Below, one piece after another: positions 12,589-19,257 of a stretch of DNA of 55,817 nucleotides; position 1 is the first letter of the stretch, and every line of letters starts with the position of its first letter. This DNA is from Candidatus Atribacteria bacterium ADurb.Bin276. Its GTDB lineage: Bacteria; Atribacterota; Atribacteria; Atribacterales; Atribacteraceae. The stretch spans positions 1 to 55,817 of the forward strand of contig MWBQ01000021.1 in assembly GCA_002069605.1 (NCBI GenBank), written 5' to 3'. Below the pieces are notes generated by a model. It saw only the letters and a program-made list of their open reading frames with translations. It did not search any database and was not told the DNA's origin. The position numbers were made by a program, and so were the translations under genes.

Positions 12589-13251
12589 ATGTTAGTGAGA
12601 GACCGTATGAGCAAAGATGTTGTCCTTATTACCAGTACTACTACCATTTTAGAAGCAGAGAAATTAATGAAAGAAAATGAAATTCGGAGACTTCCGGTTG
12701 TTGATCGGGACAAATTGATCGGGATTGTTACTTATAACGACTTGTTAGAAGCCGAACCATCTAAAGCGACCACCTTGAGTCGTTTTGAGTTGACTTATCT
12801 TCTTAGTAAAATGAATGTAGCTGAAATAATGGAAAAAAATGTAATCACCATAAAACCCGATATTCCAATCGAAGAAGCCGCTTTAATCATGAAGAAGAAC
12901 AAAGTCGGTGGCCTTCCGGTAGTCGAGGAAACTCGTGTGGTGGGAATGATAACTGAATCGGATATTTTTGATGTCTTAGTTGAAACTCTGGGAGTAGAGT
13001 TAGGTGGAACCCGAATAACTCTTGAACTTCCCGAAAAACCAGGTGAATTGCATCGGGTTACAGGCATTGTTTCTCAATTTATGGTTAATATATTGAGTTT
13101 GGCCACTTTTTATATAAATGAAAGACCAGACTTACGTTATGTTGTAATACGGGTTGCAACTCGCGATTACGAACCAATTATTGAAGCTTTTAAAGCCGAT
13201 GGTATTACCGTGAAACATGTCTGGGTTTCCCCAGTAGATGAAGAGGTGTAA
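12589..13251 (+). CDS. CBS-CBS-ACT domain protein, AcuB-like
   Basis: A 220-residue regulatory protein with two CBS domains (about 7-60, MSKDVVLITSTTTILEAEKLM; and about 78-132, MEKNVITIKPDIPIEEAALIM) followed by an ACT domain (about 142-215, ITLELPEKPGELHRVTGIVSQ). This architecture is that of AcuB-type proteins, which are thought to sense nucleotides and amino acids, but the ligand is unknown. A strong GGAAGGGGGG site precedes the ATG. It starts a new unit after the repeat island, and the next gene begins two bases after its stop. Confidence 0.88.
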   Translation: MLVRDRMSKDVVLITSTTTILEAEKLMKENEIRRLPVVDRDKLIGIVTYNDLLEAEPSKATTLSRFELTYLLSKMNVAEIMEKNVITIKPDIPIEEAALIMKKNKVGGLPVVEETRVVGMITESDIFDVLVETLGVELGGTRITLELPEKPGELHRVTGIVSQFMVNILSLATFYINERPDLRYVVIRVATRDYEPIIEAFKADGITVKHVWVSPVDEEV

Positions 13252-15074: not shown

Positions 15075-17684
15075 ATGAATATTGTTATCAGCCATGAAGG
15101 TACTGATTTTGATGCCTTAGCCTCGATGTTTGCAGTTTCCAAACTTTATCCGGGAACCCGCATTATTATCGGTGGTAGTGTGAATCGAAATGTTCGGCGC
15201 TTTCTTACTCTTTATGGGACTTTTTTTAATTATTCAATAGAGAAAGAATTGGATTGGAAATCGGTTAAGAAAATTTGGATTGTGGACGCTTCTTCTCCTT
15301 CAAGGAGTGGAAAAGCCGAAGAGCTCATTCAGGCTGGGAGGGTAGCTTTTGCCATTTATGATCATCATCCCGAAACACCAGATGGATTAAAAGGGGAACA
15401 GGTGGTTGTTCAGCCAACCGGTGCCTGTACTACCATTTTGGTGGAGCTGATCAAAGAACAGACTCTTCCTCTTAATTCCTTGGAAGCGACTCTTTTAATT
15501 CTTGGAATATATGAAGATACCGGCTCATTAACCTTTCCAACCACAACCGCCCGTGACCTTCAAGCTGCTGCCTTTTTAGTCGAACATGGAGCAAAGTTGA
15601 GTGCCATACCTGATTATGTCAATATGCAACTTACTAATGAGCAACGGGATGTTTTAAAACTTATGGTGAACTCCCTAACCGTAGTTGAAGTAAATGGGAT
15701 TCAGGTTCATTTTACTTCAGTTCAGGTTAAGGATTATGTCGATGGGGTATCTTTTTTGGTTCATAAATTAATGGATTTGGAAGAAATTAATGTCCTTTTT
15801 TCACTTTTTGATATGGAAAATAAGGTGTACATTATTGCTCGTAGCCGGCTGGAAGAAATCGATGTAAGCATCATTACTACCGGCTTGAATGGTGGGGGAC
15901 ATAAAAGTGCAGCATCGGCTTCGATCAAGGGAAGTTCTTTGGAAGAAGTCAGAAAAAAAATCATCAATATGATGAAACGCTCATTCTCTTTTACTCGCGC
16001 TGCTGATATTATGTCAACACCAGTGAAAACTGTTCACCGTGAAAGCAGTATCAATGATGCTTATTTAACTTTAATTCGTTCGGGTTTTTCCGGATTGCCG
16101 GTGGTCGATGACGAGGGGATGTTGGTGGGAATTATTGCCCGGAGAGATATGGAAAAAGCCATCCACCATGGTCTACAAAATGCCCCGATCAAGAGTTTTA
16201 TGTCACCTCAGATCATTGGAGTCTCGCCCCGTGACTCGATATATACTATACGAAATTTAATGGTAGAAAATGATATAGGACGAGTACCGGTTATCAAAGC
16301 AGGAAAACCAATCGGGATAATTACCCGAAGCGATCTTTTGCGGGTGTTTCATCAGAAAGAAAATATTGTAGTCAATGAGTTGACCCGATTAAATGTTTCT
16401 GAGTCGGTATTTGCCCACTTTACTGCTGCTGATTTGGAACTGATCAACCTGATTAGTGGCTTTGCCCGCCGAGTTGGAGTAAGAACTTATTTAGTTGGAG
16501 GAGTGGTAAGGGATATAATTTTAGGTGTTCCTAATCATGACTTAGATTTGGTGGTAGAAGGAGATGCAATTGAATTTTCCCAGAATCTCAACCGGTTGCT
16601 TAATGGGAAGGTAGTTGCCTATCCACCCTTTGGCACATCGGTCGTTTTTATGAAAGATAAGAAACGAATCGATTTCGCCAGTGCTCGAAAAGAATTTTAT
16701 CGTTTTCCAGGTGCAGCACCAGATGTGGAATATTCTGACTTAAAAAAAGATTTATTTCGAAGAGATTTTACTTTAAATGCAATGGCCATTAGTATTTATC
16801 CTGACAATTGGGGAGAGCTCTATGATTTTTTTGGTGGCTATCGAGATCTAAGAAGTAAGATTCTTCGAATTCTTCATCCATTAAGCTTTGTTGATGATCC
16901 CGCTCGATCCATACGAGCGGTCCGGTTCGAAAAAAAATATGGTTTTCATATCGAACCGTTTACCATGAGTCTCTTAAAACAAACTATTCGAAAAAATTTA
17001 TTAGATAGTATTAAGCCCGATCGTCTTAAAGAAGAAATTCAGCTCATACTGGAACTACCTAATTATTATCGTTATTTAGAACGCCTTTACCAATTGGATA
17101 TGATACCGTCGATTTTACCAGGTTGTATCTGGAAAAGGGAATATTCCGATCGGTTTATTGATGTTGAAAAAAGACTGCCAGAAGTAAAAACCATTTTAGG
17201 AATTGATAGGTTTCTTTATCAACTGACTCCTCTATTCGATGATTTTGACATCAAGCAAATTTCATTATTGCAAAAGCGTTTAGCATTATCTCGTCACTTC
17301 ACTCATAAAGTAGTGAGTTATCACTCCAAAAAAAGTGAATTTAGGTGGGCTATCGAAGAAAAAGATATTCGTCCCTCAGAGGTTTATCTTCGCTGTCGAT
17401 CGATACCCCTTGAGTTTTTATATTATTTGCTCAGTTTTTATCCAGAGAATAGCTTGGCAAGTCAGCGATTAAACCGGTATCTTAAAGAATGGATAACCAT
17501 TAAAACCATTTTAAAAGGCTCAGATTTGCAAGAAATGGGCATTAAAGCTGGTCCTCACTATGCTACAATGCTGGATGAGCTAAAATTGGCAAAAATTGAT
17601 GGACACGCAATGAACCGTTTAGAAGAAGAACAATTGATTAGGCAATATTGGGAAAGGGTGAAAAAACGTGGGGAACAAAGATAG
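15075..17684 (+). CDS. DHH phosphoesterase-CBS-CBS-tRNA nucleotidyltransferase fusion
   Basis: A single 869-residue frame joins three modules. Residues 1-305 are a DHH/DHHA1 phosphoesterase, with TDFDALASM, DHH at 96-98 and a GGGHKSAA motif near the end. Residues about 308-432 hold two CBS domains. From about 460 a class II nucleotidyltransferase of the poly(A) polymerase/CCA-adding superfamily follows, with YLVGGVVRDIILG, catalytic Asp489 and Asp491 (HDLDLVV), RRDFTLNAMAI and DPARSIRAVRFEKKYGF. Such fusions are known in several deep-branching bacteria, where some act as A-adding enzymes beside a separate CC-adding one. Whether this one adds CCA, A or poly(A) is not decidable here. Its end overlaps the trpS start by 17 bp. 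Confidence 0.9.
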   Translation: MNIVISHEGTDFDALASMFAVSKLYPGTRIIIGGSVNRNVRRFLTLYGTFFNYSIEKELDWKSVKKIWIVDASSPSRSGKAEELIQAGRVAFAIYDHHPETPDGLKGEQVVVQPTGACTTILVELIKEQTLPLNSLEATLLILGIYEDTGSLTFPTTTARDLQAAAFLVEHGAKLSAIPDYVNMQLTNEQRDVLKLMVNSLTVVEVNGIQVHFTSVQVKDYVDGVSFLVHKLMDLEEINVLFSLFDMENKVYIIARSRLEEIDVSIITTGLNGGGHKSAASASIKGSSLEEVRKKIINMMKRSFSFTRAADIMSTPVKTVHRESSINDAYLTLIRSGFSGLPVVDDEGMLVGIIARRDMEKAIHHGLQNAPIKSFMSPQIIGVSPRDSIYTIRNLMVENDIGRVPVIKAGKPIGIITRSDLLRVFHQKENIVVNELTRLNVSESVFAHFTAADLELINLISGFARRVGVRTYLVGGVVRDIILGVPNHDLDLVVEGDAIEFSQNLNRLLNGKVVAYPPFGTSVVFMKDKKRIDFASARKEFYRFPGAAPDVEYSDLKKDLFRRDFTLNAMAISIYPDNWGELYDFFGGYRDLRSKILRILHPLSFVDDPARSIRAVRFEKKYGFHIEPFTMSLLKQTIRKNLLDSIKPDRLKEEIQLILELPNYYRYLERLYQLDMIPSILPGCIWKREYSDRFIDVEKRLPEVKTILGIDRFLYQLTPLFDDFDIKQISLLQKRLALSRHFTHKVVSYHSKKSEFRWAIEEKDIRPSEVYLRCRSIPLEFLYYLLSFYPENSLASQRLNRYLKEWITIKTILKGSDLQEMGIKAGPHYATMLDELKLAKIDGHAMNRLEEEQLIRQYWERVKKRGEQR

Positions 17685-18672
17685 GATTTTTAGCGGAATG
17701 AGACCAACCGGTAAAATGCATATCGGTCATTATCTGGGAGCATTAAAAAATTGGTTGCAGCTCCAAAAAGAATATGACTGTATTTTTGGTATTGTCGATT
17801 GGCATGCTTTGACCACCTCTTTTGAACATACTGAGGATATAGAGCGAAATATCATTGATATGGCTATTGATTGGTTTAGTGTGGGTATTGATCCTGAAGT
17901 GTGTATTCCTATGATTCAATCGTTGGTTCCGGAACATGCCGAACTTCATCTTCTTCTTTCCATGGTCACTCCCTTGGGGTGGCTGGAGCGAAATCCGGTT
18001 TTAAAGCAGCAACTTCAAGACATGGGTTTGAAAGAAGCAGTTGGTTATGGGCATCTTGGCTATCCGGTTTTAATGGCTGCTGACATCATTATTTATCAAG
18101 GGGTTAAGGTGCCGGTTGGAGAAGATCAAGTTCCTCATATTGAGATTGCCCGAGAAATGGTACGCCGTTTTCATTATCTCTATCAACAAGAAGTGTTCAA
18201 GGAACCACAACCGCTTCTTACTGAAACTCCACGAATCTTGGGAATTGATGGGAAAAAGATGAGCAAGAGTTTAAATAATGCTATTGGTCTATCTGATACC
18301 AAAGAAGAATTAAGAACCAAAGTTCTTTCAATGTTTACCGATCCAGAGAAAATTCGAAAACGTGATCCAGGACATCCGGAAAGATGTAATGTCTTTTCTT
18401 TTCAGAATATTGTTGGGAATCCTCGAATCGAACAGATTGAAAAAGACTGCCGAACAGGAGATCTGGGGTGTGTTGATTGCAAAAAAGAACTATTGGGATT
18501 GATGGTTGATTATCTGGAAAAGATTTCTCCTTTCCGGGGAAGCTATCAAGGGAAAGAACAATTAGTCAAAGATATTTTAGTGGAAGGGAGTCGGAAAGCT
18601 CAGACTCTTGCTCGTGAAACAATGAAAAAAGTTCGAGAAGCGATGAATATTGATTACCAAATACCTCGATAG
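17668..18672 (+). CDS. trpS: Tryptophanyl-tRNA synthetase
   Basis: A class I synthetase that charges tRNA-Trp. The 334-residue length is typical of bacterial TrpRS. HIGH is at residues 18-21 (KMHIGHYLG) and KMSKS at 197-201. The tryptophan pocket stretch LMAADIIIYQGVKVPVGEDQ is conserved. GTG at 17668 is the start, behind an AAAGGGTGA site, inside the end of the fusion gene. The segment CRTGDLGCVDCKKEL near residue 265 has three cysteines, as in some other bacterial TrpRS. Three bases separate it from the ScpA-like gene, a neighbour pairing common in Firmicutes. No T-box was seen, and there is no room for one. Confidence 0.95.
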   Translation: MGNKDRIFSGMRPTGKMHIGHYLGALKNWLQLQKEYDCIFGIVDWHALTTSFEHTEDIERNIIDMAIDWFSVGIDPEVCIPMIQSLVPEHAELHLLLSMVTPLGWLERNPVLKQQLQDMGLKEAVGYGHLGYPVLMAADIIIYQGVKVPVGEDQVPHIEIAREMVRRFHYLYQQEVFKEPQPLLTETPRILGIDGKKMSKSLNNAIGLSDTKEELRTKVLSMFTDPEKIRKRDPGHPERCNVFSFQNIVGNPRIEQIEKDCRTGDLGCVDCKKELLGLMVDYLEKISPFRGSYQGKEQLVKDILVEGSRKAQTLARETMKKVREAMNIDYQIPR

Positions 18673-18675
18673 ATT

Positions 18676-19257
18676 ATGGATACTGACTGGAAAGATCGGA
18701 TAGAAAAAGCCAACGCTCTTTGGGAGAGGGTAAATCTGCTCCAAGAAGAGATTGAATTAATTGAAAAACAGTTGAACGAAATTCTCCAGATCGAAGAAGA
18801 AGAAATCCTGGAGGAAGATAGTCAATCTATTGAGAAAAAGATCTTTGAATTGTTTTCTCAGGTTCTTGCCGAGCTAAAGCAACAGGAAGAAAATATTTTA
18901 AAAGTACCTCCCGAGCGTTGGAAAAAAATTCAAACTCGAGAAGTTCTTGATCTGGAAAAGATGTCATTGGACAGCTTATTGGGCCTATATCGTAAGTTTT
19001 TGAATGCTGAAACAAATCAGCCACGAATTGAAATAGATGATCACTTTGAAAATCTGATTGAAGAGCAGCGAGATTACATTAATGGTTTTTTTGACCAACA
19101 TACCGGCCAATGGTTCAGAATGGACGCTCTGTTTCAGAATAGGCAGGAGCTTCGAATAGTTATTGCAACTTTTTTGGTATTGCTGGATATGGTTTTTCGA
19201 GACCTCCTTAAAATGAAAGAAGAAGATGGATTGGTGTACCTAATAAAAAATGAGTAA
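18676..19257 (+). CDS. scpA: Shortened ScpA-like segregation protein
   Basis: The 193 residues align by eye to the second half of the kleisin ScpA. Residues about 85-125 (VPPERWKKIQ...SLDSLLGLYRKFLN) match the linker and YDMLxAFxxVLN helix. The C-terminal RIVIATFLVLLDMV matches the winged-helix segment LVVTFLAxLELM. The usual first 80-100 residues, with the FEGPLDLLLHL motif that binds the SMC neck, are absent. An acidic, coiled-coil-like N-terminus (residues 1-60) stands in their place. TrpS is intact just upstream, so the missing part is not hidden there. Its position between trpS and scpB supports the call. It could be a divergent functional kleisin or a reduced one. Confidence 0.75.
   Translation: MDTDWKDRIEKANALWERVNLLQEEIELIEKQLNEILQIEEEEILEEDSQSIEKKIFELFSQVLAELKQQEENILKVPPERWKKIQTREVLDLEKMSLDSLLGLYRKFLNAETNQPRIEIDDHFENLIEEQRDYINGFFDQHTGQWFRMDALFQNRQELRIVIATFLVLLDMVFRDLLKMKEEDGLVYLIKNE

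Follow-up and report, generated by a model that had tools for sequence, protein, structure and literature searches.

A DHH-CBS-CBS-tRNA nucleotidyltransferase fusion that appears to be the only enzyme of its kind in an Atribacterota genome with CCA-encoding tRNA genes

We analysed a 55,817-nucleotide stretch of DNA from Candidatus Atribacteria bacterium ADurb.Bin276 (contig MWBQ01000021.1, positions 1 to 55,817 of the forward strand; order Atribacterales), here called the window. At 15075-17684 it carries a gene whose single product of 869 residues joins a DHH/DHHA1 phosphoesterase unit, two CBS domains and a class II tRNA nucleotidyltransferase. Here we report that the cell appears to have no tRNA nucleotidyltransferase besides this fusion, as far as searches of the genome and its relatives show. 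Because every tRNA gene found in the genome encodes its own CCA, the enzyme is needed for repair of the CCA end and not for its first synthesis. We consider it likely that the protein belongs to an already known family and is the sole tRNA nucleotidyltransferase present, acting in tRNA 3'-end repair and combining this with a DHH phosphodiesterase and sensing by the CBS pair.

The fusion gene and its active sites

The initial annotation of this DNA described the four-part architecture as one uninterrupted frame, and our analysis agrees. The frame runs from an ATG at 15075 to a stop at 17682-17684 with no interruption, and all of its Pfam domains exceed their curated cut-offs (96 bits for PF01743, PolyA_pol). 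It is not a chance frame, because each of the five other frames over 15075-17684 contains 46-65 stops, and it is not an assembly chimera, because relatives carry the fusion at full length too, among them the single-contig genomes G002 (869 residues) and G007. Its parts are as follows.

15075..17684, plus strand: DHH-DHHA1-CBS-CBS-class II tRNA nucleotidyltransferase gene, 869 residues (open frame and Pfam)
15081..15509, plus strand: DHH domain, residues 3-145, with catalytic H7, D11, D13, D71 and D96-H97-H98 (Pfam PF01368; conservation in 47 proteins)
15747..15977, plus strand: DHHA1 domain, residues 225-301, with GGGH at 273-276 (Pfam PF02272; also matched in the search of its own genome)
16002..16166, plus strand: first CBS domain, residues 310-364 (Pfam PF00571, two stretches, of which 310-364 is the best)
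16188..16358, plus strand: second CBS domain, about residues 372-428 (Pfam PF00571; boundary from Protein Data Bank matches)
16356..16385, plus strand: low-confidence stretch linking the sensor and nucleotidyltransferase halves, residues 428-437 (AlphaFold2 predicted local distance difference test, pLDDT, below 50)
16485..16868, plus strand: nucleotidyltransferase head, PolyA_pol, residues 471-598, with D489, D491 and D533, a full-length loop and RRDFT at 562-566 (Pfam, alignment)
16941..17123, plus strand: neck or RNA-binding part, PolyA_pol_RNAbd, residues 623-683 (Pfam PF12627)
17124..17681, plus strand: nucleotidyltransferase body and tail, residues 684-869 (aligned to the Thermotoga maritima CCA-adding enzyme through residue 863)

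Both halves look catalytically competent across the family, because their active-site residues are conserved in an alignment of 47 proteins (the window protein and 46 relatives from named genomes, taken from 80 fetched loci). On the DHH side, where the NrnA-type DHH/DHHA1 motifs are all present (H...D.D, D, DHH, D and GGGH), residues H7, D11, D13, D96, H97, H98 and H276 are found in 47 of 47 proteins and D71 in 46. On the nucleotidyltransferase side, D491, D533, R562-D564, D608 and R611 are likewise invariant and D489 is kept in 46 of 47. The intact DxD reported at the outset is D489-L-D491, with D533 as the third carboxylate, and the (E/D)DxxR protein template of motif D is present as D607-D608-P-A-R611. 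Within the CBS pair, G352, G414 and R418 are invariant in the relatives' alignment and D420 is kept in at least 90%.

An AlphaFold2 model of the whole protein has a mean pLDDT of 90.2, with its weak point at the 428-437 linker. The two halves are reliable in this model, and their placing relative to each other is not, because the predicted template modelling score is 0.58. The nucleotidyltransferase half of the model superposes on the T. maritima CCA-adding enzyme (Z 37.3, root-mean-square deviation 3.0 over 420 residues) in a near tie with the Aquifex aeolicus A-adding enzyme 4wby (Z 36.2). The modelled DHH half matches the T. maritima phosphodiesterase TM1595 best (Z 32.2, deviation 2.4 over 292 residues), with further matches to Rv2837c, DhhP and NrnA.

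At most one nucleotidyltransferase match per genome of the order

The initial annotation had predicted that, if the fusion adds only A, the genome should hold a separate CC-adding enzyme. That enzyme did not come to light. The window genome (98% complete, in 231 contigs and not closed) has one match to PF01743 and none to PF09249, the archaeal class I enzyme. Among 25 genomes of its order, one PF01743 match was found in 20, none in five (75-87% complete) and two in none. As a control, the same model matched 10 of 14 control genomes.

Outside the order, 25 more genomes of the phylum were covered (50 for the phylum as a whole); two genes occur in 13 of them, a single gene in nine and none in three. 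The second protein of the sister families, of about 440 residues, is shortened between motifs A and B, and passages of two studies describe a loop shortened at this place as what marks out CC-adding enzymes (PMC3925840, PMC7014341). Some of the nine single-gene genomes have only this partner, and two genomes with one match where their relatives have two (G018 and G020, 90% complete) were left out of the single-enzyme set. In the window's order the fusion occurs alone, without the partner of about 440 residues, and its own loop is not shortened: D489 to RRDFT spans 73 residues, a length shared with many other fusions in the set compared, so the CC-adding hallmark is absent from it. Fusions in general retain the loop at full length.

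CCA in the tRNA genes

In the window genome, CCA directly follows the tRNA gene in 38 of 38 cases. The same holds for all 48 full-length tRNA matches of the single-contig genome G002 and for all 33 tRNA genes in the stretches read from eight further genomes of the order, so that across ten genomes every one of the 119 tRNA genes read encodes CCA. For seven genomes of the sister families, which are two-enzyme lineages, the figure is 138 of 158, and the 20 other tails are CCT (13), CTG, CTA or CTT (4 together), TCT, TCG and TAA. In these seven genomes, namely G015, G016 (L193-L241), G017, G019, G021, G022 and G024 (L282-L301), loss strikes the A more often than either C, and in the CCT tails that make up 13 of the 20 losses the A is always replaced by T while CC is kept. 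Fisher's test on the two sets of tails gives 8e-6, but the genes share ancestry, and the difference is one contrast between two lineages, neither 119 independent contrasts nor proof.

These counts exclude three incomplete tRNA matches from G002 and a G019 gene truncated where its contig ends. Three initiator-Met genes (one each in G004, G015 and G016) scored by the script as lacking CCA were taken as carrying it, since position 1-72 is unpaired in them and this displaces the tail by one base; for G015 and G016 a separate reading agrees.

We also counted a T-arm-plus-CCA pattern in 35 genomes and compared it with the RF00005 counts; each genome contributes a few background hits to the pattern count. 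In the window genome the pattern gave 48 hits, comprising the 38 tRNA genes, one gene resembling transfer-messenger RNA, and others; in G020 it gave only 30 hits against 56 tRNA matches. Our conclusions rest on the tails read directly and not on these pattern counts.

With CCA encoded in all tRNA genes, a CC-adding partner is not required. The search for a second enzyme thus came out negative as a test of A addition but did not settle specificity, because encoded CCA would let an A-only enzyme live without a partner, and an enzyme adding all of CCA would equally be confined to repair.

CCA addition or A addition

Re-addition of A76 by the nucleotidyltransferase half is near certain from its family. 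We lean, by a modest degree of confidence, towards an enzyme that would also re-add C75 and C74, because there is a single-enzyme precedent in T. maritima, whose lone fusion can add the whole of CCA according to passages of PMC3925840.

Several observations weigh against the reading we favour. A cell that can make CCA itself would not need it encoded in all 119 of the tRNA genes read in the order. The A-adding family model NF041569 (NCBIfam), whose end-to-end alignment to the fusion (residues 1-861 to model positions 1-879 of 880) speaks for the fusion's place in the known family and bears out the initial statement that A-adding enzymes are among its relatives, gives a score of 585 bits, short of its narrow curated cut-off of 1440 (eight other fusions scanned also fall below it, the highest at 1166 bits). 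In other groups, more than one PF01743 match is found in 43 of 50 genomes and one in seven, which is the setting of A-adding enzymes; these genomes were chosen from 80 relative loci, and some of the matches are pieces of one gene. On the DHH side, D148 is D in 38 of 47 proteins and E in 9. A separate NrnA-like protein is encoded in the genome, so the part of general oligoribonuclease need not fall to the fused DHH half. Lastly, CCA addition and A-only addition are not separated by sequence, tree, regional identity or fold.

Regional identity to A-adding and CCA-adding enzymes gave no diagnostic signal for specificity. A tree of nucleotidyltransferase cores, in which 68 rows were reduced to 50 (18 dropped, some as long branches and some as near-duplicates) and the bootstrap had not settled, places the window's order in one clade (100/100) and the sister families in another (100/99), with T. 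maritima unplaced. The fusions of the order and those of the sister families, although of the same phylum, thus fall into two groups, each with good support, whose sister relationship the tree does not show; they may have arisen separately or have diverged fast.

The strongest alternative, which we regard as possible but doubtful, is that the fusion adds only A76 and that a CC-adding enzyme was lost or never present because the lineage encodes CCA in all its tRNA genes, the most exposed base alone being repaired and tRNAs that lose C75 being discarded. It is consistent with the A-adding identity of the closest full-length family model, with the pairing of the fusion and a loop-shortened enzyme in the sister lineages, and with the retention of every CCA where that second enzyme is absent. 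Seven more single-match genomes point the same way, with CCA-bearing T-arm counts at least equal to their tRNA matches before background subtraction, although two of them (G069 and G092) fall slightly short once control counts are subtracted. Against it stand the T. maritima precedent, the fact that the tail contrast is a single evolutionary comparison, and the tails themselves: an A-adding enzyme could tolerate CCT, yet CCT is absent from the order. A 3'-processing enzyme of the RNase Z type acting on encoded CCA may explain both the absence of CCT and the absence of any tail decay; passages of PMC3161902 describe a T. maritima-type RNase Z that does not take CCA as an anti-determinant and processes encoded CCA, and give PxKxRN as the motif for the CCA anti-determinant effect. 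An extension of A-only addition to the whole order, in which cells are unable to make CC, CCA is kept in every tRNA gene, only A76 is repaired, and the DHH and CBS parts balance repair against removal of worn ends according to the adenylate level, seems to us unlikely.

Very little probability remains for an A-adding enzyme with a CC-adding partner that was missed in an assembly gap or is very divergent, as the initial annotation had supposed. The assembly is in pieces and fusions elsewhere usually come with a second PF01743 match, but no genome of the order has two, the single-contig G002 and G007 included, and the same model finds both enzymes in 13 phylum genomes outside the order; together with the lack of a class I enzyme in the window genome, this largely refutes the proposal. 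A poly(A) polymerase, which would share the superfamily and the Pfam head domain, is the least credible reading of all, since the PAP I signature as given in passages of PMC8208693 has no match in the protein, the best solved matches are tRNA nucleotidyltransferases, and the cell would be left without such an enzyme.

Proposed function

Based on these observations, we suggest that the nucleotidyltransferase half would re-add lost 3'-terminal nucleotides to tRNA, with addition of CCA as the favoured specificity. The DHH/DHHA1 half is most likely an active, metal-dependent phosphodiesterase that would act on very short RNA or dinucleotides, and the conservation of the fused domain suggests that it has a dedicated role. 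Adenine nucleotides are the probable ligands of the CBS pair, which could thereby couple the energy state of the cell to one or both activities. It is reasonable to infer from this arrangement, as was done initially, a CBS-regulated cycle of building and degrading the tRNA 3' end.

In a literature search that lacked most subscription journals, we found no published function for the fused DHH and CBS parts. The fusion is widespread, with at least 591 relatives from many phyla in one scan of named genomes (80 of them kept for locus work), and conservation of the DHH and CBS parts extends to the catalytic residues. A one-enzyme lineage in which all tRNA genes encode CCA, beside a two-enzyme lineage with decaying tails, provides a clean test of the determinants of A addition and CCA addition.

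Genomic neighbourhood

The gene directly downstream of the fusion encodes a TrpS-like protein.

17668..18672, plus strand: TrpS-like gene (tRNA-synt_1b), which as called shares its first 17 bases with the end of the fusion

Among the 80 relatives, trpS lies near the fusion in 10 and scpB lies downstream in 10, both arrangements as in the window. A frame of 193 residues (18676-19257) separates trpS from scpB in the window, at the place where one might look for scpA; it gives no Pfam match at E 0.001 and may encode a highly diverged ScpA. A second protein with a CBS pair, here with a C-terminal ACT-like domain (AcuB-like), is encoded at 12589-13251, some 1.8 kb upstream of the fusion. The stand-alone NrnA-like DHH protein of the same genome lies just outside the window (L034:1423-2427, contig C21), and the gene adjoining it we take to be truB-like.

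Comparison with known systems

DHH-CBS-CBS-nucleotidyltransferase fusions are an already known kind of protein, the T. maritima enzyme and NF041569 having the same domain order. The T. maritima CCA-adding enzyme (3h37, 3h38 and 5hc9) is the best match of the nucleotidyltransferase half in both sequence (249 bits over residues 452-857, the closest solved relative) and fold. According to passages of PMC8208693 its native sequence includes Nrn and CBS domains, which are reported there as dispensable for CCA addition, and passages of PMC3925840 describe it as the sole such enzyme in its cell. Identity between the two proteins falls from 52% in the head through 39% in the neck to just 20% across body and tail, and whereas the T. 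maritima enzyme is CCA-adding, the activity of the window protein is a prediction from its sequence.

The A. aeolicus A-adding enzyme (1vfg, 4wby) is nearly as close in the head (51% identical) and in fold, with 33% identity in the neck. Its sequence match (191 bits over residues 458-699) stops at residue 699, and A. aeolicus, unlike the window organism, has a separate CC-adding enzyme, as stated in passages of PMC3925840. The A-adding type defined by NF041569 is likewise similar along the entire length of the fusion, and differs from it in score and in the lack of a CC-adding partner in the window genome. The solved DHH/DHHA1 phosphodiesterases TM1595, Rv2837c, DhhP and NrnA share the fold predicted over residues 1-306, with Z from 32 to 27, and have the same DHH and GGGH motifs; they are separate proteins, whereas in the window the same unit is a domain of the fusion.
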